Origin: Pseudorhodoferax sp. Leaf274
GTDB lineage: Bacteria > Pseudomonadota > Gammaproteobacteria > Burkholderiales > Burkholderiaceae_C
Direction: 5' to 3'
NCBI RefSeq assembly: GCF_001422445.1
Contig: NZ_LMNA01000006.1
Location: forward strand, 9,106 to 73,105
DNA: 64,000 bases
Both the position numbers and the translations under genes were made by a program. Shown piece after piece: positions 6,867 through 44,946 of the stretch. Positions within the stretch are counted from its first letter, which is position 1. Each line of letters starts with the position of its first letter. The notes under the pieces are model-generated. The model searched no databases and was not told where the DNA came from. It worked only from the letters and a program-made list of their open reading frames with translations.

Positions 6867-6884
6867 GCAATTTCCTAGCGGCGG

Positions 6885-7247
6885 TCAGCGGATGACCTTC
6901 TGGATGACCTCGATCAGGCGCGCCGGATCGAAGGGCTTGACCAACCAGCCGGTGGCGCCGGCCGAGCGGCCAGCCTGCTTCATCTGGTCGCTGGACTCGG
7001 TGGTCAGGATCAGGATGGGCACGGTCTTGAATTTGGGGTCGTCGCGCAGCTTGCGCGTCAGACCGAGGCCGTCCAGCCGCGGCATGTTCTGGTCGGCCAG
7101 CACCAGGTCGATGGGATGGGCCTGCGCCTTCTCGTAGGCGTCCTGGCCGTCCACGGCCTCCACCACGTTGTAGCCGGCCCCGGTCAGGGTGAACGACACC
7201 ATCTTGCGCATCGAAGGCGAGTCGTCTACGGCGAGGATCGAATGCAT
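6885..7247 (-). CDS. cheY: CheY-type single-domain response regulator (first copy)
   Basis: 120 residues from the ATG at 7247, preceded on the minus strand by GGAG. An upstream in-frame start at 7283 adds a tail without homology. It is a lone receiver domain with D8/D9, phospho-acceptor D52 in LVLADQNMP, a Thr/Ser switch in LILTTESS and the lysine in WLVKPFDP. It differs clearly in sequence from the CheY at 46004, so the strain has two CheY proteins in this region. This copy may be a phosphate sink or an alternative motor ligand. It lies between the CheZ-like gene and cheA. Confidence 0.93.
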   Translation of the reverse strand: MHSILAVDDSPSMRKMVSFTLTGAGYNVVEAVDGQDAYEKAQAHPIDLVLADQNMPRLDGLGLTRKLRDDPKFKTVPILILTTESSDQMKQAGRSAGATGWLVKPFDPARLIEVIQKVIR

Positions 7248-7290
7248 TGGAAGAACTCCGGGCGAGGTAGGCAGTGCGGGCAACGAGGGG

Positions 7291-7746: not shown

Positions 7747-7905
7747 AGCACGGGAGAAGCTGCATTACTGAGCGAATGTATGCCTGATATTAGTGCGGTT
7801 TGGGTACAGGCCCATCAAATGTGTAGGATGGGGCGACGAAGTGCAGCGCCAGGGAGACAGGCGTTGCGCGCCGTACAGCTCCCATACCCCCGCCACCCCC
7901 CCTCC
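7747..7905. promoter_or_regulatory. Divergent intergenic region between the chemotaxis operon and the kinase-regulator pair
   Basis: A 159-bp spacer with genes leaving in both directions, so it must hold promoters for both. Reading leftwards it contains TAATAT (from plus-strand ATATTA near 7787-7792), a plausible sigma-70 -10 element for the chemotaxis operon. No convincing -35 at 17 bp and no sigma-28 match were seen. Confidence 0.4.
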
Positions 7906-27291: not shown

Positions 27292-28527
27292 TTACTGCAG
27301 CAGGGCCAGCACACCCTGCGGCAGCTGGTTGGCCTGCGCCACCATGGCGGTACCGGCCTGTTGCAGGATCTGCGTACGCGACAGGTTGGCGGTTTCCTGC
27401 GCGAAGTCGGCGTCCACGATGCGGCCACGGGAAGCCGACAGGTTCTCCACCTGGATCTCGATGGAGCCCACAGAGTTCTCGAAGCGGCTCTGCAGAGCAC
27501 CCAGGTCGGCGCGGGCGTTGTTGACCTGGTCGAGGGCGCTGTCGATCTTCTTGAGGGCGACCCAGGCGTTGGCCTGCGTGTCGATGCTCAGCGTGTCGAT
27601 GCCCAGCGAGTCGGTCGTCGTGTCGGTGGCGGTCAGGGAGGCCTGGGTATCGCCGATCGTGCCGATGGCGCCGCCAGCCACGCCGAAGTTGCCGGCCGTG
27701 AAGCCTGCCGACAGGGTCAGCGTCGTGGCATTGCCATCGGTGTCGGTCTTCGAAGACATCAGGTCGATGGAGTACAGGCCATCGCCGCCGCGCGTCAGGA
27801 AAGCGGTGACACCGGTGTCGGCGGACTTGCGGTTGATCGCCTCCACCATCTGGCCCAGACGCTCGGTGCCGGAGCTGGCCGCGCCAATCGCACCCAGGTT
27901 CCAGGTCGTTGCGCCGTCGTTGATGTTCAGGGTCGACGCATCGGTGATCGCGCCCGTGTCGGTGATGCTGGTGGCGTCGATGCCCGTGCTCTGGCTGTAG
28001 GCATAGACCACATCGGCCAGGCCGGTGGCGCGGCTGTCGGTCAGCGCGCCGACGGTGATGTTGTCGCCCGAGTTGGCGCCCACCTGGAACACCGCGCCCG
28101 AGAAGCTGCCGTCCAGGATCTTGGTGCCGTTGAAGCTGGTCTGCTTGGCGACGCGGTCGATCTCGTCCACCAGCTGCGAGACTTCGGCTTGCAGCGCCTT
28201 GCGGTCGTCCTTGCTGTTGGTGGCATTGGACGACTGCACCGCCAGTTCGCGCATGCGCTGCAGCATGTCGCCGACCTTGCCCAGCGCGCCTTCCGCCGTC
28301 TGCGACAGCGAGATGCCGTCGTTGGAGTTGCGGGCCGCCACCGTGTTGCCCTTGATCTGGCTGTTCATGCGCTCGGAGATCGCCAAGCCGGCCGCGTCGT
28401 CCTTGGCGCTGTTCACACGCAGGCCAGAGGACAGGCGCTGCATGGACGTGGCCAGCGAGCTCTGCGAGCCGCTCAGGTTGCGCTGGGCATTCAGCGAAAT
28501 CGAATTCGTGTTGATGGTCGAGGCCAT
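27292..28527 (-). CDS. fliC: Flagellin (first copy)
   Basis: 411 residues. The N-terminal D0/D1 domain starts MASTINTNSISLNAQRNL and includes LSSGLRVNSAKDDAAGLAIS. The C-terminal D1/D0 ends LSRTQILQQAGTAMVAQANQ, with short variable D2 regions in between. The TLR5-recognised helix is present as LQRMRELAVQ. It shares near-identical ends with the flagellin at 28885 but differs in the middle (residues about 160-290) and at several helix positions. It has a good sigma-28 promoter about 150 bp upstream and a terminator downstream. Confidence 0.97.
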   Translation of the reverse strand: MASTINTNSISLNAQRNLSGSQSSLATSMQRLSSGLRVNSAKDDAAGLAISERMNSQIKGNTVAARNSNDGISLSQTAEGALGKVGDMLQRMRELAVQSSNATNSKDDRKALQAEVSQLVDEIDRVAKQTSFNGTKILDGSFSGAVFQVGANSGDNITVGALTDSRATGLADVVYAYSQSTGIDATSITDTGAITDASTLNINDGATTWNLGAIGAASSGTERLGQMVEAINRKSADTGVTAFLTRGGDGLYSIDLMSSKTDTDGNATTLTLSAGFTAGNFGVAGGAIGTIGDTQASLTATDTTTDSLGIDTLSIDTQANAWVALKKIDSALDQVNNARADLGALQSRFENSVGSIEIQVENLSASRGRIVDADFAQETANLSRTQILQQAGTAMVAQANQLPQGVLALLQ

Positions 28528-28884: not shown

Positions 28885-30111
28885 ATGGCCTCGACGATCA
28901 ATACCAATTCCATCTCGCTCAACGCCCAGCGCAACCTGAGCGCCTCCCAGGGGTCGCTGGCCACGTCGATGCAGCGCCTGTCCTCGGGCCTGCGCGTGAA
29001 CAGCGCCAAGGACGACGCGGCCGGCCTGGCCATCGCCGAGCGCATGAACACCCAGGTGCGCGGCCAGACCGTGGCGGCGCGCAACTCCAACGACGGCATC
29101 TCGCTGGGCCAGACGGCGGAAGGCGCGCTGGGCAAGGTCGGCGACATGCTGCAACGCATGCGCGAACTGGCGGTGCAGGCCTCCAACGCCACGAACAGCG
29201 CAGCCGACCGCGCCGCGCTGCAGGCCGAAGTGGCACAGCTGCGCGACGAAGTCGACCGCGTCGCCAAGCAGACCAGCTTCAACGGCACCAAGATCCTGGA
29301 CGGCAGCTTCTCGGGCGCGGTGTTCCAGGTCGGGTCCAACTCGGGCGACAACATCACCGTGGGCGCGCTGGTCGACACACGGTCCGCGCGGCTGTCCGAC
29401 ATCGCCTATGCCTACGACCAGGCCACCGGCATCCAGGGCACGGACGTCAGCGACATCGCGGCCGTCACCGATCCCTCGGCCCTGAACATCAGCGACGGCA
29501 ACACGACCTGGGGCCTGGGCGCCGTGGCTTCGGCCAGCTCGGGCACCGAGCGGCTGGGCCAGATGGTGGAGGCCATCAACCGCAAGACGGCCGACACCGG
29601 CGTGACCGCCTACCTGACGCGCAACCCCAACGGCAACTTCACGGTCGACCTGCTGTCGTCCAGGACCGACACCGACGGCAATGCCGTCACGTTGACCCTG
29701 GCCGGCTTCAACAACTCCAACTTCGGCTATACGCCGACCACCGTCGGCGCCGCAGGTTCCGTGGTCAACGCCACCGACACCACCACCGACGCGCTCGGCA
29801 TCGACACGCTGTCGGTGGCCACGCAGGCCGGCGCCTGGGTCGCGCTCAAGAAGATCGACAGCGCCATCGACCAGGTGAACAACGCGCGCGCCGACCTGGG
29901 TGCCCTGCAAAGCCGCTTCGAGAACTCGGTGGCCAACATCGAGATCCAGATCGAGAACCTGGCGGCCGCGCGCGGGCGCATCGTGGACGCCGACTTCGCC
30001 GCAGAAACGGCCAACCTGTCGCGCACGCAGATCCTGCAGCAGGCCGGCACCGCCATGGTGGCCCAGGCCAACCAGTTGCCGCAGCAGGTTCTGCAGCTGC
30101 TGCAGCAGTGA
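28885..30111 (+). CDS. Flagellin (second copy, divergent)
   Basis: 408 residues. It has the same N-terminal and C-terminal assembly domains as the first flagellin (MASTINTNSISLNAQRNLSA at the start, QLPQQVLQLLQQ at the end) and the LQRMRELAVQ helix. The central part differs, with NPNGNFTVDLLSSRTDTDG and GFNNSNFGYTPTTVG. AGGAG lies 9 bp before the ATG. The two genes point away from each other. Its promoter match is poor, so it may be expressed at a different level or under another regulator. The adjacent glycan island suggests both flagellins may be glycosylated. Confidence 0.96.
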   Translation: MASTINTNSISLNAQRNLSASQGSLATSMQRLSSGLRVNSAKDDAAGLAIAERMNTQVRGQTVAARNSNDGISLGQTAEGALGKVGDMLQRMRELAVQASNATNSAADRAALQAEVAQLRDEVDRVAKQTSFNGTKILDGSFSGAVFQVGSNSGDNITVGALVDTRSARLSDIAYAYDQATGIQGTDVSDIAAVTDPSALNISDGNTTWGLGAVASASSGTERLGQMVEAINRKTADTGVTAYLTRNPNGNFTVDLLSSRTDTDGNAVTLTLAGFNNSNFGYTPTTVGAAGSVVNATDTTTDALGIDTLSVATQAGAWVALKKIDSAIDQVNNARADLGALQSRFENSVANIEIQIENLAAARGRIVDADFAAETANLSRTQILQQAGTAMVAQANQLPQQVLQLLQQ

Positions 30112-30165: not shown

Positions 30166-30915
30166 TCAGGCGATCCGCCGGAGAAACCCATCCGGCGCCA
30201 CCGTGATCAACAGCTTGTGGTCGATCGTGTGGTCGATCTCGAAATCCGCCGTGGTCTGCAGGTACGCGTGCAGCGCCGTCTTCGGGCTGTTGCCCGGGCC
30301 CCAGGGGCGGTCGGGGAACATGGACTTGGGCATGTCTTCGATCACCGTGTCGAACACCACGCAATAGCTGCCCACGCTCACCAGCGGCGCATAGGCCTGC
30401 AGCTCGGCCAGCACGTGGTCGTGCGTGTGCATGCTGTCCAGGCAGACGAGCACGCGTTGCTTGCCTTGCGCCCGGGCGCGGACCTGCGCGACCACCTCGG
30501 GCGCGATGCTGGAGCCCTGGATCATCCGGATGCGCCGGGCCATCGGGTGCGCCTCGATGGCGGCGCGGTTGTGGGCGCGGATGTCGATGTCCAGCCCCAG
30601 CACCTCGGCATCGGCCGGGCCGCCGCAGGCCGCGTTGAGCTCCAGCATGGCCGCCGAGAAGATCAGCGAGCCGCCGTGCGCGATGCCGGTCTCCACGATC
30701 AGGTCGGGCTGCACGCGCCAGATCAGTTCCTGCATGGCCACGATGTCCTGCGGATACTGGATGATGGGCCGCCCCATCCATTCGAAGTGGTAGGAATACT
30801 TGCCCGCGTTGGCGCGGTCCATCCAGGCCCGGGTGGCCTGCGCCAGTTCGGCGTCGGCGCCCTGGGCCGCGATCTCGGCGCGGCCTTCCTGCTGGAATTG
30901 TTCGTAGGGGGTCAT
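30166..30915 (-). CDS. CmcI-family (cephalosporin hydroxylase-like) methyltransferase-fold protein
   Basis: 249 residues. The family is named after CmcI of cephamycin synthesis but has a SAM-methyltransferase fold, and its members often lie in sugar or lipopolysaccharide clusters. Visible features are LIVETGIAHGGSLIFSAAMLEL (the SAM-binding loop core is ETGIAHGGS), VLGLDIDIR and VLVCLDSMHTHDHVLAEL. The start is the ATG at 30915 with GAGGAG upstream; the longer frame is rejected. It is the last gene of the glycan island. It probably modifies a sugar, for example by O-methylation. The substrate is unknown. Confidence 0.8.
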   Translation of the reverse strand: MTPYEQFQQEGRAEIAAQGADAELAQATRAWMDRANAGKYSYHFEWMGRPIIQYPQDIVAMQELIWRVQPDLIVETGIAHGGSLIFSAAMLELNAACGGPADAEVLGLDIDIRAHNRAAIEAHPMARRIRMIQGSSIAPEVVAQVRARAQGKQRVLVCLDSMHTHDHVLAELQAYAPLVSVGSYCVVFDTVIEDMPKSMFPDRPWGPGNSPKTALHAYLQTTADFEIDHTIDHKLLITVAPDGFLRRIA

Positions 30916-30926
30916 GGGAATGCTCC

Positions 30927-31586
30927 TCAGGGTTGTGGCGCGCGGCGCAGCGGCCGTGCGGGATTGCCGACGACGGTGGTGTCCGGTGGCACGTCGCGCG
31001 TGACGACCGCCCCGGCACCGACGATGCTGTTCTCTCCGATGGTCAGCCGCGGCAGCACCACCGCACCGGCACCCACCATCACGTGCGCATGCAGCGTGAC
31101 CAGGCCGCACAGGGTGGCGCCCGGCGCAAGGTGAACGCCATCGCCGATCCGGCATTCGTGGTCCACCGAGGCCTTGTGGTTCAGGATGCAGGCCGCGCCG
31201 ACCACCGCATCGGCAGCCACCACGGCCTGGGCCAGCACCTGCGTGCCGGCCCCGAGCGTCGCCGTCGCGCAAACCGAGGCGTCGGGGTGCTGCAACGGCG
31301 GCAGTTCAAGCCCGCGCCCGCGGAACAGTTGCTGCAGCGCGAGCCGGTCGCGCCCGCGGCTGCCACCGATGGCGACCAGTCCGCGCACCTGCGCGATGTC
31401 CTGCGCCTGGTCGGCCCAGCGGTGAAAGCCGGCTTCGCCCTGGTACACGGGCACGCCCGGCAGCACGGACGCCACGGCGTCGCGGTCGAACAGCGCCTCC
31501 ACGCAGCCGCCAAGGCGCCCGATCAGCGCTGCCAGCACCTTGGCGTGGCCGGCCGAGCCCCAGATCACGTAGCGCGGTTCAGCCAT
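30927..31586 (-). CDS. NeuD/PglD-family sugar acyltransferase
   Basis: 219 residues. An N-terminal Rossmann-like domain (YVIWGSAGHAKVLAALIGRLG) precedes a left-handed beta-helix of hexapeptide repeats (ATLGAGTQVLAQAVVAADAV, VGAGAVVLPRLTIGENS). The repeats include NHKASVDHEC, where PglD-type enzymes carry the catalytic His. The C-terminal VVGNPARPL is typical. It most likely acylates the 4-amino group produced by the neighbouring aminotransferase. The ATG at 31586 overlaps the aminotransferase stop by 8 bp. Confidence 0.9.
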   Translation of the reverse strand: MAEPRYVIWGSAGHAKVLAALIGRLGGCVEALFDRDAVASVLPGVPVYQGEAGFHRWADQAQDIAQVRGLVAIGGSRGRDRLALQQLFRGRGLELPPLQHPDASVCATATLGAGTQVLAQAVVAADAVVGAACILNHKASVDHECRIGDGVHLAPGATLCGLVTLHAHVMVGAGAVVLPRLTIGENSIVGAGAVVTRDVPPDTTVVGNPARPLRRAPQP

Positions 31587-32688
31587 GGCGCATGCCACGC
31601 AGCACCGCGGCCACGCGCTGCTGCTCCTCGTCCGTCATGTCGTGGTAGCTGGGCAGGTTGATGGCCCGCGCCGCGATGCCAGCGGCCAAGGGCTGGCCCG
31701 CATGGCCGCCCAGCACCGGCAGGCTGGACAGGGGATGGAAGAACACGCGCGCGTCGATGTTCTCGGCCGCGAAAGCGGCCTGCAGCGCCTCGCGCGTGAC
31801 CCCGGTCGCTGGCGCGAACACCGCGGTCGGCATCCAGGCGCCGTTCTCGCAGCCCGCCGGCTCGGGGTTCAGCGCGATGCCGTCGCAGCCCGCCAGCAAG
31901 GCGCGGTACCGGTGGAAGATCGCGCGCTTGCGCGCCACCAGCTCGCCGATCCGCTCCATCTGGCCGCAGCCGATGGCCGCCTGCACGTTGGACATCTTGT
32001 ACTTGTAGCCCACCATGTCAGGCCAGAACTGGCGCGCCTGCCCGCGCGCACGGCCATGGTTGGACAAGGTGTTCACGGTGTCGAACAGGGCGTCGTCGTT
32101 GGTCACGAACATGCCGCCCTCGCCCGTGGTCAAGGTCTTCGTGCCATGGAAGGAGAACGCACCGAAGGCACCCATGCTGCCGGCGCGCCTGCCATGCCAT
32201 ACCGAGCCCAGCGCCTCCGCCGCATCCTCGATCACCGGCAGGCCATGGGCGGTGCCGATGGCGCGCAGCGCATCCATCTCGCACAGGTTGCCGTACAGGT
32301 GCACGGCCAGGATGGCCTTGGTGCGGGGCGTGATCGCACGCTCGACCAGCGCCGGGTCCAGGCACCAGCTGTCGGCCAGGATGTCCACGAACACCGGCGT
32401 GGCGCCCAGGTGCACGATGGGTGCGGCCGAAGCGATCCAGTTGGTGTCGGCCAGGATCACCTCGTCGCCCGGCCCGATCCCGAGCGCGGCCATGCCCATG
32501 TGCAACGCGCCCGTGGCGCTGCTCGTGGCGATGGCATGCCTCACGCCCAGGTGCTCGCGGAACTGCGCCTCGAAGCGGTGGATGTAGTCGTAGCAACGCT
32601 CGCCCCAACCGTTGCGCGTGGCATCGGTCGCGTAGCCGACCTCCAGCTCGGTGACGGAGGGCTTGGTGTAGAGAATGCGTGCCTTCAT
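31579..32688 (-). CDS. DegT/DnrJ/EryC1-family nucleotide-sugar aminotransferase
   Basis: 369 residues. The PLP lysine is K184 in FSFHGTKTLTTGEGG, and the cofactor region EDAAEALGSVW precedes it. Because lysine is present (not the histidine of RfbH/E1 and ColD), it should be a true transaminase that aminates a keto-sugar, resembling PerA/RfbE-type 4-aminotransferases. It would act on the CDP-keto-sugar made by rfbF/rfbG and modified by the epimerase and C-methyltransferase. The start is the ATG at 32688; the long frame upstream belongs to the opposite reading of neighbouring genes. Confidence 0.92.
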   Translation of the reverse strand: MKARILYTKPSVTELEVGYATDATRNGWGERCYDYIHRFEAQFREHLGVRHAIATSSATGALHMGMAALGIGPGDEVILADTNWIASAAPIVHLGATPVFVDILADSWCLDPALVERAITPRTKAILAVHLYGNLCEMDALRAIGTAHGLPVIEDAAEALGSVWHGRRAGSMGAFGAFSFHGTKTLTTGEGGMFVTNDDALFDTVNTLSNHGRARGQARQFWPDMVGYKYKMSNVQAAIGCGQMERIGELVARKRAIFHRYRALLAGCDGIALNPEPAGCENGAWMPTAVFAPATGVTREALQAAFAAENIDARVFFHPLSSLPVLGGHAGQPLAAGIAARAINLPSYHDMTDEEQQRVAAVLRGMRHG

Positions 32689-33911
32689 GCGATCTCCAGG
32701 CGGGGAACGGCCGTCACGAAGCGCGCACCCCATGTGCGCGCGTAGTCCAGCTGCGCGACCAGCTCGCTCCTGAGGTTCCAGGGCAGCAGGACGATGTAGT
32801 CGGGCCGGTCCTGCGCCAACTGCGCCTCGTCGACGATGGGAATGCGGCTGCCCGGCATCCACTTGCCCTGCTTGGCCGGGTTGCGGTCGACCACGTAGGC
32901 CACCTGGTGCGGCCGCACGCCCGCGAAGTTGAACAAGGTGTTGCCCTTGGCCGCCGCGCCATAGGCGGCCACGCGCTTGCCGGCCGCGAACTGCTCGGAC
33001 AGGAAGGCCTGCAGTTCGTTCGCGATGCGCGACGGCTCGCGGCCGAAGCGCGTGTAGAAGTCCGGGCCCAGCATGCCGGCCGCGGCCTCCTCCTCCAGCA
33101 GCCGCGTGACGGCCGCGCTGCGCGGCTGCAGGCCGGTGTCGGCGCGCTGGGCGAACACGCGCAGGCTGCCGCCGTGCGTGGGCAGTTGCTCCACGTCGAA
33201 CACCGCCAGGCCGTTGGCCGCGAAGATGCGCTGCACCGCCGTCAGCGAGAGGTAGGAGTAGTGCTCGTGGTAGGCCGTGTCGAACTGGCACTGCTGCACC
33301 ATGCGCAGCAGGTGCGGGAACTCGAAGGTGGCCACGCCCCGGGGTTGGAGCAGCAGCGCGAAGCCGGCCACGAAATCGTTGATGTCGGGCACGTGGGCCA
33401 GCACGTTGTTGGCGGCCATGAGGTCTGCCTGGCGGCCGGCCGCCGCCAGTTCGCGCGCCAATGCCACGCCGAAGAAGCGCTCGTCGATCTCGATCCCCTT
33501 GGCGCGCGCGGCGGCCGCCGTGCTGGCGGTGGGCTCGATGCCATAGCACGGGATGCCGGCACGCTGCACGTACTGCAGCAGGTAGCCGTCGTTGGCGGCC
33601 ACCTCGACCACGCGACTCGCCGGACCCAGGCCGAAGCGCTCGTGCATCGCGGCCACGTAGGCCTCGGCATGGGCGAGCCAGGACGAGGAGAACGAGCTGA
33701 AGTAGGCGTAGTCCTCGGTGAAGAGCGCCTCCCGGCCGGCATGGTCCTCGGTCTGCACGAGCCAGCACGATCCGCAGGCCAGCACGCGCAGCGGGAACCA
33801 GGTCTCCGGCGCGTTGAGCGCCGCGGCATCCAGGTAGGCGTTGCTGGGCGGGGCGCTGCCCAGGTCCAGGAAAGGCAGGCGCACCTCGGCGGCGCAATGG
33901 CGGCATTTCAC
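32685..33911 (-). CDS. Sugar C-methyltransferase (zinc-binding N-terminal domain, SAM-dependent)
   Basis: 408 residues when started at the GTG at 33911 (MKCRHCAAEVRLPF). It has an N-terminal zinc ribbon (CRHC near residue 3 and CGSCW near residue 47), a central SAM-binding core (RVVEVAANDGYLLQYV) and a C-terminal domain with VAAYGAAAKGNTLFNF and VDRNPAKQGKWMPGS. This three-part layout is that of TylC3/NovU-like 3-C-methyltransferases of deoxysugar pathways. Its ends overlap the aminotransferase and the epimerase-like gene, so all are co-translated. It implies a branched-chain sugar. Confidence 0.9.
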   Translation of the reverse strand: MKCRHCAAEVRLPFLDLGSAPPSNAYLDAAALNAPETWFPLRVLACGSCWLVQTEDHAGREALFTEDYAYFSSFSSSWLAHAEAYVAAMHERFGLGPASRVVEVAANDGYLLQYVQRAGIPCYGIEPTASTAAAARAKGIEIDERFFGVALARELAAAGRQADLMAANNVLAHVPDINDFVAGFALLLQPRGVATFEFPHLLRMVQQCQFDTAYHEHYSYLSLTAVQRIFAANGLAVFDVEQLPTHGGSLRVFAQRADTGLQPRSAAVTRLLEEEAAAGMLGPDFYTRFGREPSRIANELQAFLSEQFAAGKRVAAYGAAAKGNTLFNFAGVRPHQVAYVVDRNPAKQGKWMPGSRIPIVDEAQLAQDRPDYIVLLPWNLRSELVAQLDYARTWGARFVTAVPRLEIA

Positions 33912-34468
33912 GGCAGGAGCCCTCGGAAGTCGTTGTCGAATGCAGGCTGCGCGGCATCGCGCGGCGACAGGCCGCGCACCGGCAGCGGCCAGGCGATGGC
34001 CAGGCGCGGGTCTTCGCAGTGCAGGCCGCCCTCGGCCTGCGGCGCGTAGGCGGCCGAGTGCAGGTAGAGCATGGCAACGTCGCGGCTCAACGCCTGGAAC
34101 CCGTGCGCAAAGCCTGCGGGGATGAGCAGCGCGCGCCCGTTGGCGGCCGACAGCCGCTCGGCATGCCAGCGGCCGAAGGTGGGCGAGCCTGCGCGCAGGT
34201 CCACGGCCACGTCCCAGACCTCGCCGGCCAGGCAGCTCACGAGCTTGGCCTCGGCATGCGGGGCGCGCTGGAAGTGCAGTCCGCGCACGGTGCCGCGCTC
34301 GGCCGTGAAGGTGTGGTTGACCTGGGCGATGGGGCCGGGCCAGCCGGCCTCGGCCAGTTCCTCGGCGCAATACAGGCGTGCCAGGTAGCCACGCGCATCG
34401 CCGAGCAGGCGCCGGTCGATGCGGCGCAGGCCGGCCAGCGGCGTGGCGTGGGCTTCAAGGCGCCGCAT
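33908..34468 (-). CDS. dTDP-4-dehydrorhamnose 3,5-epimerase-like protein
   Basis: 186 residues, a cupin of the RmlC family. The core motif TVRGLHFQRAPHAEAKLVSC contains the catalytic His (GLHFQ), followed by VDLRAGSPTFGRW and IPAGFAHGFQAL. In this cluster it would epimerise a CDP-4-keto-6-deoxy sugar at C3 or C5 rather than a dTDP-sugar, because no rmlA or rmlB is present. It begins at the ATG at 34468, overlapping the rfbG 3' end by 14 bp. Confidence 0.9.
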   Translation of the reverse strand: MRRLEAHATPLAGLRRIDRRLLGDARGYLARLYCAEELAEAGWPGPIAQVNHTFTAERGTVRGLHFQRAPHAEAKLVSCLAGEVWDVAVDLRAGSPTFGRWHAERLSAANGRALLIPAGFAHGFQALSRDVAMLYLHSAAYAPQAEGGLHCEDPRLAIAWPLPVRGLSPRDAAQPAFDNDFRGLLP

Positions 34469-35528
34469 GTTCGTAGGCGTCGATGTCGGCCAGGCACAGT
34501 GCGCGCGCATCGGCGCCTTCAGCCTGGGCCCGGTACCAGGCCATGCTGCGCTGCACGGCGGTGGCCAGCGGCCAGCGCGGGCGCACGCCCAGGCTCTGGC
34601 GCGCGCGGCTCACGTCCAGCGCAAGCAGGCCGGCCTCGTGCGGGCCTGCACGGCCATCGCCGTAGGCGACCTCGCCACGGCCGTAGGCAGCGCGCGCAAG
34701 CTCGACCACGGCCCGCACGGTGGCGGCCTCGTCGGCGGCCGGGCCGAAGTTGTAGGCGCCGGCCAGCGCCGGCTGCGCCCACAGGCGCTCGGCCAGCAGC
34801 AGGTAGGCGGCCAGTGGCTCCAGCACGTGCTGCCAGGGGCGCACGGCCGCGGGGCGGCGGATCTGCAGCGGCTCGCCGGCCGCGAATGCGCGCACCGCGT
34901 CGGGCAGCAGGCGGTCTTCGGCCCAGTCGCCGCCGCCGATCACGTTGCCGGCGCGCGCGCTGGCCACGGCCACGCCCTGGGCGGCCAAGAAGGCATCGCG
35001 CCAGCTGGCCACGGCCAGCTCGGCCGCGGCCTTGCTGGCGCTGTAGGGGTCGTGGCCGCCCAGCGCATCGTCCTCGCGGTAGGGCCAAGCCCATTCGCGG
35101 TTGCGGTAGACCTTGTCGGTGGTCACGGCCACGGCCACGCGCACGCTGTCCTGCCCGCGCAGCGCGTCCAGCACATGGGCCGTGCCCATGGTGTTGGCGG
35201 CCCAGGTGTCCAGGGGCGCGCGGTAGCCCGGCCGCACCAGGGCCTGGGCGGCCAGGTGCAGCACGATCTCGGGGCGCGCGGCCGCGACCACGGCGCGCAC
35301 GGCCTGCGCATCGCGGATGTCGGCCACATGGTGCGCCAGGCCTTCGTCCGCGCGTGCCAGGCCGAACAGGTGCGGCGCGGTCGCCGGCGCCAGCGCCAGG
35401 CCCGTGACCTGGGCGCCCAGCCGCCGCAGCCACAGCGCCAGCCAGCTGCCCTTGAAGCCGGTGTGGCCCGTCAGCAGCACGCGCCGGCCGGCCCAGAACG
35501 CGGGGCTCGGATTCACCAGGTCTTCCAT
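34455..35528 (-). CDS. rfbG: CDP-glucose 4,6-dehydratase
   Basis: 357 residues, extended short-chain dehydrogenase fold. The NAD-binding motif is TGHTGFKG (20-27), a form specific to this enzyme; the catalytic YxxxK is Y162-S-A-S-K166, and TTDKVYRN precedes it. It converts CDP-glucose to CDP-4-keto-6-deoxyglucose. The ATG at 35528 lies inside the end of rfbF, with a 16-bp overlap. It is the entry step of the branched-sugar pathway. Confidence 0.96.
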
Positions 35529-36283
35529 GGCGCCTTTCCGCTCAGCCAGAGGTCTTCGAGCAGGTTCTTCTCGCGCAGCGTGTCCATGGGCTGCCAGAAG
35601 CCCTGGTGCTCGTAGGCCTGGAGTTCGCCATCCCTGGCCAGGCCCGACAGGGGCTCGCTCTCCCAGGCCGTGCCGTCTTCGGCGATGCGCGCGATGACCC
35701 GGGGCGACAGCACGAAGAAGCCGCCGTTGATGAGGCCGCCATCGCCGCGCGGCTTCTCGGTGAAGCCCTGCACGGCGCTGCCCTGCATGCTGAGCGCGCC
35801 GTAGCGCCCGGGGGGCTGCACGGCCGTGACCGTCGCCAGCTTGCCATGCGCCCGGTGGAAGGCGATGGTGGCGGCGATGTCCACGTCGGACACGCCGTCG
35901 CCGTAGGTGAAGCAGAAGGCGTCCTCGCCGCGCACGTAGTCGGCCACGCGGCGCAGGCGCCCGCCGGTCATGGTGTCCTCGCCGGTGTCCACCAGCGTCA
36001 CGCGCCAGGGCTCGGCATGCTTGTGGTGCACCTCCATGCGGTTGCTGGCCATGTCGAAGGTCACGTCGGACATGTGCAGGAAGTAGTTGGCGAAGTACTC
36101 CTTGATCACGTAGCCCTTGTAGCCGCAGCAGATCACGAACTCGTTCACGCCGTGGGCCGAGTACATCTTGAGGATGTGCCACAGGATGGGCTTGCCGCCG
36201 ATCTCGATCATGGGCTTGGGCTTGAGGTGGGTTTCCTCGGAAATGCGGGTCCCGAGGCCACCGGCCAGGATCACGGCTTTCAT
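35513..36283 (-). CDS. rfbF: Glucose-1-phosphate cytidylyltransferase
   Basis: 256 residues. The nucleotidyltransferase signature is at the N terminus, [19 protein letters not shown], with [13 protein letters not shown] as the metal-binding acidic region and GRYGAL and NGGFFVL as later family motifs. It makes CDP-glucose from CTP and glucose-1-phosphate. It overlaps the stop of the giant glycosyltransferase gene (ATGA) and rfbG, so the biosynthetic genes and the transferase form one coupled transcript. Confidence 0.97.
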
Positions 36284-39200
36284 GTCTTCTCCTGTTCCCA
36301 GCGTTGGAACATCTGGCGGTAGGCGTCCTCGACGCTGCGCGCGAAGGCCGGCTCGTCCATGAGCCTGCTCTGCTGCATCTCGGCACGCAGGCTGGCGCGC
36401 AGCGCGGCCAGGCGCGGCAGGTCGGCGGCCAGCGCCGCGGCCTTGTCGATGTATTCCTGTTCGGTGTCGGCGATCCACTCCGGGTGGCCGATGCCGGCCA
36501 GGATGGAACTGCCCAGGCGCCCGGCGCTGGGCCGGCTGGCCAGCGTGACGAAGGGCAGGCCCATGTACAGGCTCTCGAACAAGGTGGTGCCGCTGTTGTG
36601 CGGGAAGCAGTCCAGCATGATGTCGACCTCGCGCAGCAGGTCCCAGGGCGGCGTGTGGTGGCCGATCAGCAGGCGTTCGCGGGCGATGCCGTGCGCGGCG
36701 AAGCGGGCGGCCAGCGTCGCCTGCGTCTCCGCATCCTGGTAGCTGCGGCTGTCGATGACCAGCGTGGCCGTGGGCACGCGCTGCAGCAGCCGCGACCACA
36801 CGCGCACCGTGTGGTCGTTGATGCGCACGGCGCGCGTCAGCGTGCAAAAGCGCACGCCGCCATGGCGCAGCGCCGGCAGCGGCCCGGGATCGCCCATGCG
36901 CGCCGCGCCGGCCGGGCGGAAGACGAAGGCCGTGGGCAGCCGCCACGGGGCCTCGGACAGCAGGTGCTCGCTGCCGGGCGGGGTGTGCTGCACGTCGGTC
37001 AGGAACCAGTCGATGGCCGACAGGCCGGTGGTCGTGCCATAGCCCATCCAGGAGACCGAGACCGGCGCGGGCTTGAGGGCGAAGACCCCCAGGCGGTTGC
37101 CGCCGGTGTGCCCGGCCAGGTCGACCAGCACATCGATGCCGTCGGCGCGGATGCGCTCGGCCAGTGCCTGGTCCGACATGCCGCGCGTGGGCACCCAATG
37201 GTCGACCAGGCGCTTGTAACGCAGCGTCGCCGGGTCCTCGTGCTGCAGTTCGGCATAGGCATGGACCTGCACCGCCCCGTGGTCGTGCTGCGCCAGCAGC
37301 GGCTCCAGGAAATTGGTGACGGAGTGCTGGCGGAAATCCGGCGAGACATAGCCGACCTTGAGCGCACGCATGCCACCGCGCCGCCGGCGCAGCGCTGCGT
37401 TGCCGTGCGCGCGCCACGCGGCCTTCTGCGGCGCGTGAAAGCGCTGGTCGTAGGCCTGGTACTCGGCGAACACCTGCTCGCCCGTCTTGTCCGGGTGGTA
37501 GTTCAGCACGAACAACAGGTTGCCGTGGGCGTTGCGGTCGTTCGGCTGCAGTTGCAGGCCGCGGCGCATGCTGTCCTCGGCCTCGGCCTGGCGGCCCTGG
37601 TTCTGCAGCACGATGCCCAGGCTGCCGTGGGCCTGCGCGAGCTGCGGGTCCAGCGCGATGGCATGGCGGTAGCCCGCTTCGGCCTCGACCAGCCGCTGCG
37701 CCGCGTTGTGGACCTCGGCCAGGTGGTTCCAGGCGACGGCGGCATCGGGCGCCAGCGCCAACACGCGCCGGCACAGCGCCTCGGCCTCGTCCAGGCGGTG
37801 CAGGCTGCGCTGCACCGCCACGCCGGCGTACAGCAGCTGCAGGTTGTCGGGCTCGATCTCGAGCCCGCGGCGCACGCAGTCCAGGGCCTCGCCGTTGCGC
37901 TGCTGCTGGCGCAGCACCTGCGCCAGGTTCAGGTAGCCGGCGACGAAGTCCGGCCGCTCGCGCAGGGCCTGTCGCCACCAGGTTTCCGACTCGATCGCGC
38001 GGCCCTGCTCCTGCAGCAGGCGGTCCAGGTTCAGCAGCGCGCTCTGGAAATCGGGCTGCAGCGCCAGGGCCTGGCGGAACGCCGCCTCGGCTTCGGCGGT
38101 CTTGTGGGCGGCTTTCAGGCAGACGCCCAGGTTGTAGTGGGCGGTGGCCTGGTCCGGCTGCAGCGCCACGGCCTCGCGGTAGCAACGCTCGGCTTCGTCC
38201 AGGGCGCCACGCTCCTGCAGCACCAGGCCCAGGTTGCTCTGGGCTTCGGCGAACTCCGGCACCCAGGCCAGCGCGCGGCGGTAGCACGATTCCGCCGCCT
38301 CGGACTGCCCATCGGCGCGCAGGCGGTTGCCCTCGTCGTAGACCTCCTGCGCGCGTCGCACCAGCGCATGCAGGGGATGCGGGTCGGTGGCGCACCAGGC
38401 CGTGAACATGGCGCGGTAGGCCTGCTCGACCTCGTGTGCGAAACCGGCCTCGTCGCGCAGGGGGCTGGCCTGCATGCGCGCACGCAGCCCGTGGCGCAAG
38501 CGCTCCAGCGCATCCATGTCCGAGGCCAGGGCCACGACCTTGTCGACGTACGCCGCCTCGTCCGTGGCGATCCATTCCGGATGGCCCACGCCGTGGAGCA
38601 CGGAGCTGCCCATGCGCCCGACGCCCGGCCGGCCGGCCAGGGTGACGAACGGAACACCCATCCACAGCGATTCGAACAGGGTGGTGCCAGAGTTGCCCGG
38701 AAAGCAGTCCAGGGTGATGTCGGCACCGCGCAGCAGATCCCACGGCGGGCTGTGGTAGCCGATCTGCAGGCGCGCCGGGTCGACGCCCTGCTCGGCGAAA
38801 CGCTGCGCCAGCGCGGCCTGGGCCGACGGATCGACGAAGCTGCTGCTGTCGATGACCAGCCTGGCGGTCGGCAGGCGCTGCAGGATGGCGGCCCAGGCCC
38901 GCAGCGTGCGGTGGTTGATGCGCACGCTGCGCGTCAGCGTGCACAGCGTCACATGGCCGCGCGCGCGCGCAGGCAGGGGGCCGCAGTCGCCCATTCCCTC
39001 CGCGGGGCGGAACGCCCAGGCGAGCGGCAGGCGCCACGGCGTCTCGGCGAACAGGGCTTCGCAGCCCTGCGGCAGGTTGGCCGCGTCTGCCAGGTAGTGG
39101 TCGATGGCGCTCAGGCCGGTGGTGGTGCCATAGCCCATCCAGCTCACGGAGACCGGCGCCGGCTTGTGCGCGAACACGCCCAGGCGGTTGCGCACGGTGT

Positions 39201-42200
39201 GTCCGGCCAGGTCGACCAGCACGTCGATGCCGTCGGCGCGGATGCGCCGCGCCAGATCGGCGTCGCCGACGCCGCGGGTCGGCACCCAGTGGTCGACCAG
39301 CGCCTGGTAGCGCTGCGTCACCTCGTCCTCGCGCGCCAGTTCGGCATAGGCGTAGACCTCGACCACGGCCTTGTCGTGCGCGGCCAGCAGCGGCTCCAGG
39401 AAGCGCTGGCAGGCATGGCGGCGGAAGTCCGGCGAGACATAGCCGACCTTGAGCCGGCGTTCGGCCGTGCGCGCATTCGCATGGGCCTGCCAGGTGCCGC
39501 GCAGCGGCAGGCCGAAGCGGCGGTCGTACTCGCGGTAGTGCGCGGCGACCTCGGCATCGCTCAGATCCGGGTGGTAGTTGAGCGTGAACAGCATGTTGCT
39601 GTAGATGTCCTCGTATCCCGGATCGATCGCCAATGCGCGCTGGAAGTGCTGGATCGATGCGTCGATGCGCCCGAGCTTCTGGTACGTCACGGCGAGGTTG
39701 TTGTGCGCCTCGCGGTAGTCGGGCCGCAGTGCCAGCGCACGCAACAGCACCGTCTCCGCCTCGACCAGCAGACCCTGGTCCTGCAGCGTCACGCCGAGGT
39801 TGCATTGCGCCTCGGCGTCCTGGGGCAGCAGCGCAGCGGCACGCCGCTTGGCCGCCAGCGCTTCCACCGGGCGCCCCAGCGGCTGCAGCATCACGCCAAG
39901 CGCCTTGAATGCGAAGCCATGGTCGGGGCAGCGCTCGGTCAGCGCCTGCGCCAGCGCCGCGCCCTCCGCGAAGCGGCGGCTGCGGAACAGCTCGGTCAGC
40001 GCCTGCATTTCCGCGTGCGTCGGGGCGGCGCCGCTGCGCACGGGCGTGGCGGCGGGCGTGGCATCGGCCCAGCGCGCGAACATGGCGCGGTAGGCCGCCT
40101 CCACGCTCGCGGCGAAGCCGGCCTCGTCCATCAGCGCGCTGGCCTGCATGCGCGGGCGCAGTTCGCGGCGCAGCCGTGCCAGCGCCCCCAGGTCCGAGGC
40201 CAGCGCGACAGCCTTGTCGACGTAGGCCGCCTCGGTCTCCGCGATCCACTCCGGGTGGCCCACGGCCTGCAGCACCGCGCTGCCCAGACGCCCCACGCTG
40301 GGCCGCCCGGCCAGCGTCACGAAAGGAACGCCGAGGTACAGGCTCTCGAACAGCGTGGTGCCGCTGTTGTGCGGAAAGCAGTCGAGCATCACGTCGATGC
40401 CGCGCAGCACGTCCCAGGGCGGGCTGTGGAAGCCCATCTGCAGCTGCTGCGGCGCCACGCCGAGCGCCACGAAGCGCGCCTGCAGCCGGGCACACGTCTC
40501 GGCATCGGCGAAGTTGCGGCTGTCCAGCACCAGGCGCGCACCGGGCAGGCGCACCAGGATGGCGGCCCAGGCCCGCAGCGTGCGCGTGTTGATGCGGATG
40601 CTGCGCGACAGGCTGCCGAAGGTCACATGGCCCTGGCGCTCGGCCGGCAGCGGCCCGGGCTCGCCCATGCCCTCGGCAGGACGGAACACCCAGGCCACGG
40701 GCAGCCGCCAGGGCGCCTCGGCGCAAACGGCCTCGCTACCGGGCGGCGAGTGCTGCGCATCGCTGAGGTGGTAGTCGATCGACGACAGGCCGGTGGTGCT
40801 GCCGTAGCCCATCCAGGTCAGCGACACCGGTGCCGGCTTGCGCGCGAACACCGCCAGCCGGTTGCCGCGCGTGTGGCCCGCCAGGTCGACCAGGATGTCG
40901 ATGCCGTCGGCGCGGATGCGCTCGGCCAGCTCGGCGTCGCCCAGGCCATGCGTCGGCACCCAGTGGTCCACCAGCTGCCGGTAGCGTGCGGTGACGGCGT
41001 CTTCCTCCGTCAGTTCCGCATAGGCCGTGATCTCGAAGCCACGCCGGTCGTGGGCGGCCAGCAGCGGCTCGAGGAAGCGGGCGCTGGCATGCGCCCGCAG
41101 GTCCGGCGAGACGTAGCCGACCTTGAGCCTGCGGCCAGCGCCGCGCGCATTCGCATGCGGACGCCACTGGGCCCGCAGGGGCTGGCCGATGCGGCGGTCG
41201 TACTCCTGGTAGAGCGCAAAGATCTGCTCGGCCGACAGGTCGGGCGCGTAGTTCGCCAGGAACAGCAGGTTGTCGAACAGGTGCGGCGTGGCCAAGCCCT
41301 GGGCCAGCGCCTGCTGGAAGCTGGCCAGCGCTTCCTCCACCTCGCCGAAGTGCTGCAGCACGTCGCCCAGGTTGTGCAGGGCCAGCGCATAGCCGGGGCG
41401 CACCTGCAAGGCGGTGCGCAGGCTGGCCTCGGCCTCGCGCAGGCGGCCCTGCTCCTGCTGCAGCATGCCCAGGTTGTTGAGCGCCTCGGCATGGTCCGGC
41501 CGCAGTGCCAGGGCCTGGCGCCACTGCTCTTCGGCAGCCGCCTGGCGCCCCTGCGCATGCAGCGCATTGCCCTGGTTGTAGAGCAGTTCGGCCTGCAGGG
41601 CAGCCAGTTCGCTGCCGATCGATTCCGGCTGCGCCTGGCGCGCGCTCCAGCGCGCAAACATGGCGCGGTAGGCGTCTTCCACGGCCCGCACGAAGCGGGG
41701 CTCGTCCATCAGCGCGCTGGCGCGCATCTCCTCGCGCAGGCCGGCGCGCAGGGCGGCCAGCCGCGGCAGGTCCTGGGCCAGCGCCACGGCCTGCCCGATG
41801 TAGCCATCCTCCGTCTGGGCCACCCATTCGGGCCGCCCCAGGCCATGCAGCACGGCACTGCCGACGCGGCCCACGCTGGGCCGCGCCGCCAGCGACACGA
41901 TGGGCACCCCCATGTACAGGCTCTCGAACAGCGTGGTGCCGCTGTTGTGCGGAAAGCAGTCCAGGCCGATGTCGATGCCGCGCAGCACGTCCCAGGGCGG
42001 GCTGTGGCAGCCGATCTCCAGCCGGTCGCGCGCGATGCCGTGCACCGCGAAGCGCGCGGCCAGCGCCTCGGCCAGCACCGGATCGAGGTAGGAGCGGCTG
42101 TCCACCACCAGGCGCGCGCCTGGCACGCGCTGCAGGATCGCCGCCCAGACCCGCACCGTGTGCTGGTTGATGCGCACGCCGCGCGTGAGGGTGCCGAAGG

Positions 42201-43815
42201 TCACATGCCCCTTGCGCAGCGCCGGCAGGGGACCGGGCTCGCCCATGCCCTCGCCGGGGCGGTAGACGGCGAACGGCGCGTCGGCCAGCCGCCAGGGGGC
42301 TTCCGAGAACAGGTGGTCGCTGCCGGGTGGCACGTGGGCGGCGTCGGTCAGGTAGTGGTCGATCGCCGTCAGCCCGGTGGTGTAGCCGAAGCCCATCCAC
42401 GACAGCGACACCGGCGCCGGCTTCAGCGCGAACACGCTCAGGCGGTTGCCGCGGGTGTGGCCGGCCAGGTCGACCAGGATGTCGATGCCGTCGGCACGGA
42501 TGCGCTCGGCCAGCGCCGCGTCGGACAGGCCCCGGGTGGGCACCCAATGGTCGACGACGCCCTGGTAGCGCGCGGTGACCGCATCCTCCTCGTCGCGCAT
42601 CTCGGCGTAGGCGAACACTTCGATGGCGGCGCGGTCGTGGCCCTGCAGCAGCGGCTCCATGAAGAAGCTGCAGGCGTGGTGGCGGAAGTCCGGTGAGACA
42701 TAGCCCACGCGCAGGCGGCGCCCAGCCAGCGCCGGGTTGGTGTGCGGTCGCCACTGCCGGCGCGCGGGAAGGCCGAAGACCCGATCGAACTCGGCATAGG
42801 CGGCGCGAATCTCCTCGGCCGTCTTGTCCGGGTGGTAGTTCAGCACGAACAACAGGTTGTCGAAGGCGATCTGGTAATCGGGCCTGGCGGCGACCGCGCG
42901 CTGCAGCACACCGACGGACTCGTCGATCAGGCCCTGGCTGGTGTAGATGCCGGACAGGTTGTTCAACGCCTCGGCAAAGTCGGGCTGCAGCGCGACCGCC
43001 TGGCGGAAGCAGTCGTGCGCCCGGGCCACCTCGCCCAGCGCGTTGAGCGCCAGGCCCAGGTTGTTGTGCGCCTCGGCATGGCGCGGCGCCAGGGCCACGG
43101 CGCGCTGCAGCACCGCCGCAGCGGCAGCGCTGTCGCCCAGCTCGAAGTGCGCACGGCCCAGGTTGCACAGGGCCTCGGCGTCCCGGGGCAGGAGTTCGGT
43201 GGCGCGGACCTTGGCGGCCAGTGCCTCCTGCTTGCGCCCCAGCTGCTGCAGCATGGCGCCCAGCGCCTTCCACAGGAATCCTTCCTGCGGATGCAGTTCC
43301 AGCAAGGCGCGCGCCTGCCGCTCGCCCTGCGCATGGTCTCCGGCCCGGAACAGCGCGACGAGCGCCTGCTTGTCGGCTTCCTGCAACACGGCGGGGGCCG
43401 CAGGCCGCGGCCCGGCGGCCGGCTTTTCCGCAGCGCGGGCCGCCCGCGCACGTTCGGCCAGGCCATTGGCCATGGCCACCGACAGGCCATTGGCCTGCGC
43501 CACCGGCAGCACCTGCTCGGCCAGCGCCGATTGGCCGGCCCGCACGAGGGCGTCGATGTAGCTGAACCAGAACTGGGGCCGCGCCGGGTCGAGGTTCAGC
43601 GCGGCCTCGAAGCACGGCAAGGCTTCCTGCGGCTGCCCCAGCCCGATGGCATGCAGCACGCCCAGGTTGTGCAAGGCGTCGGCATGGGCAGGATCGCGCG
43701 CCAGCACCTCCCGGTACGCCTGCTCTGCCGCTGCGAAATCGAAGCTGCGGTGGCGTTCGATGGCCTGCCGGAACAAGTCCTGCAGCGCCTCGGCGGCATC
43801 GGGGGTTTCGGTCAT
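36280..43815 (-). CDS. Four-module TPR plus GT41 (OGT/SPINDLY-type) glycosyltransferase
   Basis: 2511 residues in one uninterrupted frame, from the ATG at 43815. Four consecutive units each consist of TPR repeats and then an OGT-type catalytic half. The GYVSPD motif that opens each catalytic half lies near residues 370, 900, 1457 and 2154, and each half ends AYR-MF near 718, 1245, 1802 and 2503. Each contains GYVSPDxRxH, LVDLAGHT, a WMGxGxTTGL segment and [14 protein letters not shown]. Known GT41 enzymes usually have one catalytic domain. Co-transcribed with rfbF and rfbG and close to two flagellins, it probably glycosylates flagellin on Ser/Thr. Donor sugar and targets are unproven. Confidence 0.9.
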
Positions 43816-44088
43816 CGGCGTGCGGTCGTTCGACAAGAGACTGCCGAGAATAGCCAGCGATTCGATCCGACAGAGCGGGAAATACGCGCGAATCATGGCC
43901 CATTTGCAGACGAACCTGCGGCAGCCGCGCCCCAGCCCAGCCGATGTACGTCGCCTTTGCGCCGCTTATTGGCGCTTCAGAAGCTTCGTATCGCCGGGTT
44001 CATCCGATACATTCCTAAGCAAATAGCTTGGGCTTCGGCCTGTACACGGCCATCCCAGGCCTTCGCACCGCCACCTTCCGCACCGCAC
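43816..44088. promoter_or_regulatory. Divergent region between the glycosyltransferase gene and motA
   Basis: 273 bp from which the giant glycosyltransferase leaves leftwards and motA rightwards. It is somewhat less GC-rich than the genes. CATCCGATACATTCC at 44001-44015 resembles a sigma-28 -10, but nothing like a FliA -35 stands 11 bases upstream. An upstream in-frame ATG for the glycosyltransferase lies at 43896 but adds a sequence without TPR character. Confidence 0.4.
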
Positions 44089-44946
44089 ATGATCGTCATC
44101 ATCGGCTACGTCGTCGCCATGGGCTGCATCTTTGGCGTGTACGTCTTCCACGGCGGGAACATCGGCGTGATTCTGACGGCGCTGCCGTTCGAGCTGATCA
44201 CCATCTTCGGCGGCGCGCTGGGCGCCTTCGCGGTGAACAACCAGCCCAAGGTGCTCAAGGCCACGCTCAAGGCCCTGCCGACGGCCTTCAAGGGTTCCAA
44301 GTTCACCAAGGACCGCTACCTGGAGCTCATGGCGCTGCTTTACGACATCCTGCAGAAGGCCCGCAAGGAGGGCCTGATGGCGATCGAGAAGGACGTGGAG
44401 GAGCCCGAGGCGTCGGAGATCTTCAAGAAATACCCCGTGGTGGGCAGCGACCACCACGTGGTGGAGTTCATGACCGACTACCTGCGCATGATGGTCTCGG
44501 GCAACCTGAACGCGCACGAGATCGAATCGCTGATGGACAGCGAGATCGAGACCCACCACCAGGAGGCGCACGCCCCCGTGGCCGCCATCGCCCGGCTGGC
44601 CGGCGCGCTGCCGGCCTTCGGCATCGTGGCCGCCGTGCTGGGCGTGGTGAACACCATGGGCTCGGTCGGCCAGCCGCCCGCGGTGCTGGGCGGCATGATC
44701 GCCTCGGCCCTGGTCGGCACCTTCCTCGGGATCCTGCTGGCCTACGGCGTGGTCGAGCCGCTGGGCGGCCTGCTGGAACAAAAGAGCGAGGACGCGGCCA
44801 AGGAGCTGCAGTGCATCAAGACCACGCTGCTGGCCAGCATGCAGGGCTACAACCCGTCCACCGCCATCGAGTTCGGCCGCAAGGTGCTGTTCTCGACCGA
44901 GCGCCCCAGCTTTGCCGAGCTGGAGGCGCACGTGAAGAAGAAGTAA
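44089..44946 (+). CDS. motA: MotA, flagellar stator proton channel subunit
   Basis: 285 residues with four membrane segments, starting MIVIIGYVVAMGCIFGVYVF. The conserved PAFGIVAAVLGVV segment carries the channel proline, and the cytoplasmic loop has the charged helix typical of MotA. It forms the stator with MotB and pushes on FliG. The open frame continues far upstream, but coding similarity begins only at this ATG. motB follows after 12 bp. Confidence 0.97.
   Translation: MIVIIGYVVAMGCIFGVYVFHGGNIGVILTALPFELITIFGGALGAFAVNNQPKVLKATLKALPTAFKGSKFTKDRYLELMALLYDILQKARKEGLMAIEKDVEEPEASEIFKKYPVVGSDHHVVEFMTDYLRMMVSGNLNAHEIESLMDSEIETHHQEAHAPVAAIARLAGALPAFGIVAAVLGVVNTMGSVGQPPAVLGGMIASALVGTFLGILLAYGVVEPLGGLLEQKSEDAAKELQCIKTTLLASMQGYNPSTAIEFGRKVLFSTERPSFAELEAHVKKK

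Follow-up and report, generated by a model that had tools for sequence, protein, structure and literature searches.

A four-module GT41 glycosyltransferase gene at the head of a CDP-sugar operon in a Pseudorhodoferax flagellar cluster, and an acidic residue at its predicted base-reading position

Glycosyltransferase family 41 (GT41) is the family of human O-GlcNAc transferase (OGT; GlcNAc, N-acetylglucosamine), and its characterized members use, to our knowledge, sugars linked to uridine diphosphate (UDP) or guanosine diphosphate (GDP). The subject of the present study is a GT41 protein with four catalytic halves on one chain, encoded in a 64,000-nucleotide stretch (hereafter the window) of contig NZ_LMNA01000006.1 of Pseudorhodoferax sp. 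Leaf274. Its closest solved fold is that of SPINDLY, the plant protein O-fucosyltransferase, which likewise joins a tetratricopeptide repeat (TPR) array to a GT-B half. According to the accessible parts of the structural work (PMC10027727), SPINDLY uses GDP-fucose and OGT uses UDP-GlcNAc; guanine and uracil are discriminated through Lys689 and Ala731 in SPINDLY and Leu866 and Arg904 in OGT, and the sugars through Tyr744 and Cys917, respectively. A second SPINDLY structure paper also discusses donor choice in GT41, with no mention of cytidine diphosphate (CDP) in its accessible text (PMC9715652).

The papers on bacterial flagellin glycosylation are likewise cited for their accessible parts. GT41 enzymes of the 'SPINDLY family' are encoded beside flagellin, together with sugar-modifying genes, in enterobacterial flagellin islands; De Maayer and Cowan predicted GlcNAc derivatives for them while allowing a wider specificity, and one of their island types holds genes for CDP-4-keto-6-deoxyglucose, which are not linked there to the donor choice of the GT41 enzyme (PMC4875605). 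Experiments in Dickeya dadantii support a role of OGT-like genes in flagellin glycosylation: flagellin is lighter in mutants of two island transferase genes, one of which is OGT-like (PMC6637903). Multi-half GT41 proteins and a donor code are mentioned in neither of these two texts. In FlmG of Caulobacter, compared here by description, a TPR part binds flagellin and a transferase part modifies it in the cytoplasm, but the sugar is pseudaminic acid and each part is present once (PMC7591256). Paratose, made as CDP-paratose, has been predicted on Clostridium flagellin (PMC13317340). A whole-word search of the open literature for GT41 together with CDP returned only PMC4875605; in that literature, which leaves out most subscription journals, none of the titles or abstract openings listed for multi-domain OGTs or for TPR flagellin transferases describes tandem GT41 halves.

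We consider it likely that the window protein is a cytoplasmic flagellin O-glycosyltransferase whose four TPR-GT41 modules use a CDP-linked branched 6-deoxyamino sugar made by its own operon. The gene and its modules (M1 to M4) are the following.

36280-43815, minus strand: four-module TPR-GT41 glycosyltransferase, 2511 residues, first gene of the operon (translation, Pfam, motifs, codon GC)
41644-42717, minus strand: M1 catalytic half, residues 367-724; predicted base-reading Asp572 at codon 42100-42102; TPR part at 42718-43815
40066-41130, minus strand: M2 catalytic half, residues 896-1250; predicted base-reading Asp1098 at codon 40522-40524; TPR part at 41131-41643 (the shortest)
38392-39456, minus strand: M3 catalytic half, residues 1454-1808; predicted base-reading Asp1656 at codon 38848-38850; TPR part at 39457-40065
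36295-37365, minus strand: M4 catalytic half, residues 2151-2507; predicted base-reading Asp2355 at codon 36751-36753; TPR part at 37366-38391

The catalytic halves were aligned to SPINDLY numbering, and the reference letters (SPINDLY Lys689, His728, Ala731 and Tyr744; OGT Leu866, Arg904 and Cys917) agree with PMC10027727. All four halves of the window protein have Asp at the position of Lys689 (OGT Leu866), a gap at 731 (the Arg904 position), Arg at 662 and 665, Gly at 747 and Glu at 752, while position 744 is His in M1, M2 and M4 and Gly in M3. Neither the UDP-GlcNAc signature (Leu866, Arg904, Cys917) nor the GDP-fucose signature (Lys689, Ala731, Tyr744) is found, both being replaced by Asp, a gap and His or Gly. 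Of the other SPINDLY residues, the ribose-binding Glu752 is kept in all four modules and Ser496 and Val497 in M4 only, whereas Asn662 and Lys665 are replaced by Arg and Thr747, which aligns with a His in OGT, by Gly. On this alignment, none of the four modules retains the canonical donor site, and each carries an acid at the base-reading spot.

Translation confirmed the claim of an earlier note on this DNA that four TPR stretches, each with a GT41 catalytic half, lie in one open frame, which has a single terminal stop and runs on the minus strand, a point that the note leaves out. The longest frame from an ATG would give 2538 residues, but the start at 43815 is favoured because the orthologue in a second genome of the genus (G005) also begins with MTET and the alignment runs from there. 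The motif GYVSPD occurs four times (residues 371, 900, 1458 and 2155), as do LVDLAGHT (447, 975, 1533 and 2230) and a ten-residue motif (624, 1150, 1708 and 2407). Eight stretches match the Pfam GT41 model PF13844 (E 2.2e-168; 561 bits against a curated cut-off of 25), with many TPR models matching between them; at a threshold of E 0.001 the protein matched 21 Pfam families, none of them Maf. The guanine-plus-cytosine (GC) content by codon position (0.75/0.48/0.92) is coding-like over the full frame, the third position lying between 0.91 and 0.94 in every quarter. An antisense open frame of 2130 residues (36304-42696, plus strand) runs over the gene and is presumably a by-product of the 92% third-position GC. 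Because long frames arise by chance in GC-rich DNA, a risk that the antisense frame illustrates, the reality of the gene rests on homology and not on length, and homology in every module rules out a chance frame.

In an AlphaFold model of M4 (12-row alignment; mean predicted local distance difference test score 82.8, predicted template modelling score 0.75), a long run of paired helices is followed by a mixed strand-helix half, and Foldseek returned SPINDLY (8dtf, E 4.7e-41) and then OGT as the nearest solved structures. As modelled for M4, and by alignment alone for M1 to M3, each module is a TPR array with a GT-B half of OGT/SPINDLY topology. The OGTs, including XcOGT and TtOGT, share the fold and the order of the motifs, with sequence matches to 5djs (E 5e-64) and 3pe3 (E 7.5e-35), and differ at all three donor positions given above. 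The difference from SPINDLY extends beyond the donor site to the four halves per chain and the CDP-sugar operon.

The residue at the base-reading position was then compared with the presence of rfbF and rfbG, the genes for glucose-1-phosphate cytidylyltransferase and CDP-glucose 4,6-dehydratase. The first set of loci comprised the stretches around GT41 matches in a family sample, fetched regardless of residue, plus named loci (3-21 kb each, and the 64 kb of the window); a match counted as rfbF/rfbG if it covered at least 35% of the query with an identity of 45% or higher. Three loci were left out of the counts, two that share a contig with another locus (L057 with L066, L202 with L060) and one fragment (L068). 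In the first 84 loci rfbF/rfbG accompanied 9 of 15 Asp loci, all 8 Glu loci and none of the 31 loci with Lys. Outside the family, 60 top-ranked regions contained two acid loci, both with rfbF/rfbG, whereas none of the other 58 regions had these genes (Fisher p 0.0006). One further Asp locus and three Glu loci came from directed searches; rfbF/rfbG were present in all but one of these, an 8-kb contig with flagellin. Pooled over 148 loci and 208 modules, the genes were found in the fetched stretch of 22 of 29 acid (Asp or Glu) loci, one of three Asn loci, none of 64 Lys-only loci and 3 of 52 others; the pooled Fisher p of 2e-16 is overstated, relatives being counted repeatedly. Wherever an Asp locus had RfbF (12 of 12), its stop-to-stop frame abutted or overlapped the end of the GT41 frame on the same strand, and in one Glu locus with two halves (L204) RfbF started 15 nt behind the GT41 gene. 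Flagellar genes were present in the stretches of 21 of the 29 acid loci versus 15 of the 119 others.

A scan of all alignment columns, in which neighbourhood and clade defined the groups (two linked lineages of 30 and 11 modules, and 164 unlinked modules), gave SPINDLY Lys689 as the best column of the whole half: the fraction of modules with an acid there was 0.93 and 1.00 in the CDP-linked lineages and 0.04 among the unlinked modules. The second-best column was the gap at Gln730, beside Ala731. Two loci (L204, L205) had been put in the Glu clade as they were found by a Glu-type query, and the tree with the trait column masked agrees (99). The trees used 82 of the 208 modules, hand-picked, plus two references, and with the column masked, support was good for both acid clades (Asp 98, Glu 99).

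Several observations weigh against the proposed function, some in the protein itself. Arg replaces, in all four modules, Lys665, whose loss abolishes SPINDLY activity, and we found no source showing Arg working at this position, which we take to correspond to the pyrophosphate-binding Lys842 of OGT. Over 45 modules the position is Arg in 34 and Lys in 11, so that Arg is a trait of the branch. Furthermore, M2 has NYAPD in place of NYHPD before its catalytic half, the His being lost from M2 in the window and in G005 and kept in the four-module protein of another genus (G166). This loss, the short part preceding the M2 half (TPR plus linker: 366, 171, 203 and 342 residues in M1 to M4) and the Gly of M3 at the Tyr744 position could mean that catalysis is confined to one or two modules, the rest being binding platforms or decaying copies. 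We regard this as possible but doubtful, since 16 tabulated core positions are identical in the four modules, non-synonymous divergence (0.21-0.25) lies below synonymous divergence (0.47-0.76, a rough figure given the third-position bias) in each module alike, and the spacing of the catalytic halves is similar between genera (164/195/335 residues in the window protein, 169/195/330 in G005, 170/224/330 in G166). The loss of catalytic residues against which the earlier note had advised checking was seen in none of the four halves for the core motifs examined. Given the retained core residues and the similar rates, all four modules are probably useful. The idea that more modules serve more Ser/Thr acceptor sites found no support, since flagellin is no richer in Ser/Thr where there are more modules. 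The Ser plus Thr share of the flagellin variable part is 0.23-0.28 in the window, L209, L212 and the broken array L075, and 0.26-0.29 in two single-module relatives of the same genus (L138, L139); no value was obtained for L063 and L212_1-522, whose frames are truncated.

The other adverse points concern the link between acid and CDP genes. Seven of the 29 acid loci have no rfbF/rfbG in the fetched stretch. Two of these (L067, L206) are short contigs, one (L076) ends at a contig edge and its apparent other part (L075) has RfbF, and three (L065, L066, L077) have RfbF elsewhere in the genome (L064, L128 and L062, respectively); in the seventh (L078) tailoring genes are present and neither RfbF nor RfbG was found in about 54 kb. 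In 9 of the 10 CDP-linked Glu loci RfbF lies on the opposite strand, 5-7 kb off. In a Met-type branch (L102, L123, L124, L128, L135), CDP genes are 1-6 kb away in three of the five loci (L123, L124, L128); in all five the GT41 gene adjoins a DegT-type aminotransferase gene, so that the donor may differ there. In the Lys-type loci L182, L183, L186 and L198, taken as a control for GDP, GT41 stands directly behind genes for a dehydratase-like short-chain dehydrogenase/reductase and a DegT protein, and these four dehydratases matched several NCBIfam dehydratases, all far below cut-off. As to phylogeny, a tree holding the Asp and Glu clades together was slightly better (approximately unbiased test, p 0.583), so that two independent origins are not favoured over one. 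Only two independent pairs are supported, too few for significance; the CDP genes follow the residue in an average of 1.8 of 2 pairs, falling to 1.4 of 2 when Asn is kept apart from the acids.

The association might therefore be thought to reflect the shared ancestry of one island, the residue having no role in base reading, and the joinable clades and few pairs would fit this. We nevertheless consider it unlikely, because the top column is a known base-contact residue and the next lies beside the other one, because the operon points to a CDP donor no matter which residue reads the base, and because there is a group inside the Asp clade that has neither the acid nor the CDP genes. Loci L172-L176 (genomes G699 and G753; adjoining genes and one fused pair) have the Arg-Arg motif of the Asp branch and Tyr, Phe or His at the base-reading site, and rfbF/rfbG were not found near them; the halves of L172-L175 are nested in the Asp clade, L176 being outside the tree. 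A secondary change of donor is possible there. Because independent origins are few and the Met-type branch breaks the rule, the link between acid and CDP genes is best described as a strong association, short of proof.

The GT41 gene heads a tight eight-gene operon within a flagellar cluster, and the flagellar context suggested in the earlier note is borne out by its neighbours, flagellar and sugar biosynthesis genes together being what is expected around a flagellin glycosyltransferase. The remaining genes of the operon, the two likely acceptors and the divergent neighbour are as follows.

35513-36283, minus strand: RfbF, glucose-1-phosphate cytidylyltransferase, its start overlapping the GT41 stop by 4 nt (TIGR02623, 476 bits, cut-off 300)
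34455-35528, minus strand: RfbG, CDP-glucose 4,6-dehydratase (TIGR02622, 459 bits, cut-off 278)
33908-34468, minus strand: RmlC-type sugar epimerase (PF00908)
32685-33911, minus strand: sugar C-methyltransferase (Methyltransf_13/14)
31579-32688, minus strand: DegT/DnrJ/EryC1 nucleotide-sugar aminotransferase (PF01041; all NCBIfam matches below cut-off)
30927-31586, minus strand: NeuD/PglB/VioB-family sugar acyltransferase (TIGR03570, 186 bits, cut-off 161)
30166-30915, minus strand: rhamnosyl O-methyltransferase/CmcI-type methyltransferase (PF04989)
28885-30111, plus strand: flagellin 2, likely acceptor
27292-28527, minus strand: flagellin 1, likely acceptor
44089-44946, plus strand: MotA, divergent, upstream of the operon (TIGR03818)

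By our own gene calls, adjacent genes from GT41 through NeuD overlap by 4 to 16 nt, and the last gene starts 11 nt behind the NeuD gene. From their family matches, RfbF and RfbG are the pair that makes CDP-4-keto-6-deoxyglucose. The alternative that the protein is a flagellin transferase of the usual OGT/SPINDLY kind, using UDP-GlcNAc or GDP-fucose while the CDP genes serve another transferase or an O-antigen, would agree with the donors of SPINDLY and OGT and with the GlcNAc derivatives predicted for the enterobacterial islands. It seems to us improbable: both residue sets are replaced in all four modules, the CDP genes overlap the GT41 gene, the only RfbF over cut-off in the genome is the one found here, and family-model searches of the operon proteins revealed no second glycosyltransferase.

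If the protein is, as we prefer, a CDP-dependent flagellin transferase, its TPR stretches would hold flagellin in the cytoplasm before export, as in FlmG, and each GT-B half would transfer the operon sugar to Ser or Thr. This sugar would be derived from glucose-1-phosphate through CDP-glucose (RfbF) and CDP-4-keto-6-deoxyglucose (RfbG), followed by epimerization, C-methylation, amination, N-acylation and O-methylation in some order; the predicted product is of the 4-amino-4,6-dideoxy type, C-methylated and carrying acyl and O-methyl groups. Cytosine may be read by the Asp that replaces Lys689/Leu866, together with the shortened loop at Ala731/Arg904. Where uracil has an oxygen, cytosine carries a 4-amino group, from which, on chemical grounds, the Asp probably accepts a hydrogen bond. 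Four modules per chain could provide a high local activity, with lineages kept distinct perhaps for different sites.

The two flagellin genes are closely related and stand back to back in opposite directions, and two flagellins are also found in several relatives. Reading by eye placed FliD- and FliS-like genes beyond the operon and a diverging MotB-like gene upstream. A candidate FliA-type promoter with three mismatches lies upstream of the GT41 gene (43966-43992), a weak indication, as the window has 21 such sites against 9.7 expected. Also inside the flagellar cluster, between fliE-like and fliS genes read by eye, a DNA N6/N4-methylase gene (PF01555) overlaps a gene for a 353-residue protein with no Pfam match (22741-24836, minus strand); the pair resembles an inserted modification unit.

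The genus sample comprised six genomes, the window genome (G000) included, and the family sample 299 genomes, 178 of which matched at 1e-20; at most six candidates were scored per genome, and counts are lower bounds. A single RfbF over cut-off was present in each of four of the six genus genomes, directly behind this GT41 gene in G000, G004 and G005 and about 250 kb from the GT41 gene matched in G003; the genus-wide search found none in G001 and G002. In the latter two, a single-half Ala-type GT41 gene and a DegT gene occupy the same place, between the flagellin genes and the divergent motA (L139 and L138, respectively), and the glycosylation island thus seems to be exchanged as a cassette. 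The window genome has a second GT41 gene elsewhere (L141, contig C12, frame 4446-7853, minus strand), with a single half of another type and Val at the base-reading site; no flagellar neighbours were seen in the 19.5 kb fetched around it.

Four-module frames occur in at least three genomes: G000, G005 (same genus, 2608 residues) and G166 (another genus, 2565 residues, on a 5.8-Mb contig). In G004 the orthologue is interrupted by contig ends and its frames are shifted, one piece (L075) lying on contig C27 and another (L076) on C14, through either an assembly error or gene decay. That the four modules are an artefact of assembly or sequencing, as repeated DNA and the broken G004 region might suggest, can be dismissed, since the same joined frame recurs in two other species and the modules differ by about 30%; the earlier note's concern about an error fusing separate genes does not apply.

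The catalytic halves of the window protein are 65-71% identical to one another, and those within and between the three four-module proteins 63-75%. In a tree of 45 halves, M4 of G000, G005, G004 and G166 formed one clade (99/95), and M1 of G000, G005 and G004 another (98/92) that joined M1 and M2 of G166 (92/91), while M2 and M3 were mixed; in a larger tree made with a quick method, M1 of the four genomes grouped (81), as did M3 (93), and M2 was not separated. M1, M4 and probably M3 are therefore orthologous between genera, so that the array is older than the separation of these genera, and M1 and M4, at the least, have stayed distinct. This agrees with the earlier proposal that the modules diverged after duplication, and places the duplication before the present genera split. 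In G246, which has three halves, the first and the third are 88% identical, a sign of recent copying there.

The earlier view that several catalytic halves in one GT41 protein are unusual holds, but the window protein has counterparts: among the fetched loci, 15 frames, its own included, have between two and four complete halves. Four halves, the largest number among these loci, occur in three frames (the window, L062 and L063), three halves in four (L058, L059, L064 and L072) and two in eight (L071, L073, L074, L075, L142, L148, L172 and L204). As these frames are spread over branches of the Asp, Glu, Gln, Ala/Gly, Lys and Tyr types, fusion of GT41 units has happened many times; the architecture is rare, not unique. 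As for the suggested descent from tandem genes in relatives, fused arrays and solitary paralogues were found, and adjoining separate genes occur in some distant relatives (e.g. L173 and L187). A plasmid search gave 79 records with relatives, many from Azospirillum, all below 60% identity.

Taken as a whole, the data incline us, if only slightly, to a broader view: that a branch of GT41 switched from UDP or GDP to CDP through Asp or Glu at the Lys689/Leu866 site, the donor class being readable from one residue; that multi-engine proteins were built more than once; and that the four-module form keeps distinct lineages across genera in the manner of an assembly line, placing sugars on set flagellin sites. 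The persistence of orthologous module lineages is compatible with specialized roles, and their being kept separate weakly suggests position-specific ones; the modules may also have distinct acceptors or act processively, as the earlier note proposed.

If this holds true, a CDP-reading branch would widen the donor range of GT41 and show how the family changes donor, and the donor class would become predictable for uncharacterized bacterial members whose present names rest on homology to OGT. Four enzyme copies on one chain, together with a simple and abundant likely acceptor such as flagellin, would provide a natural case for studying division of labour.

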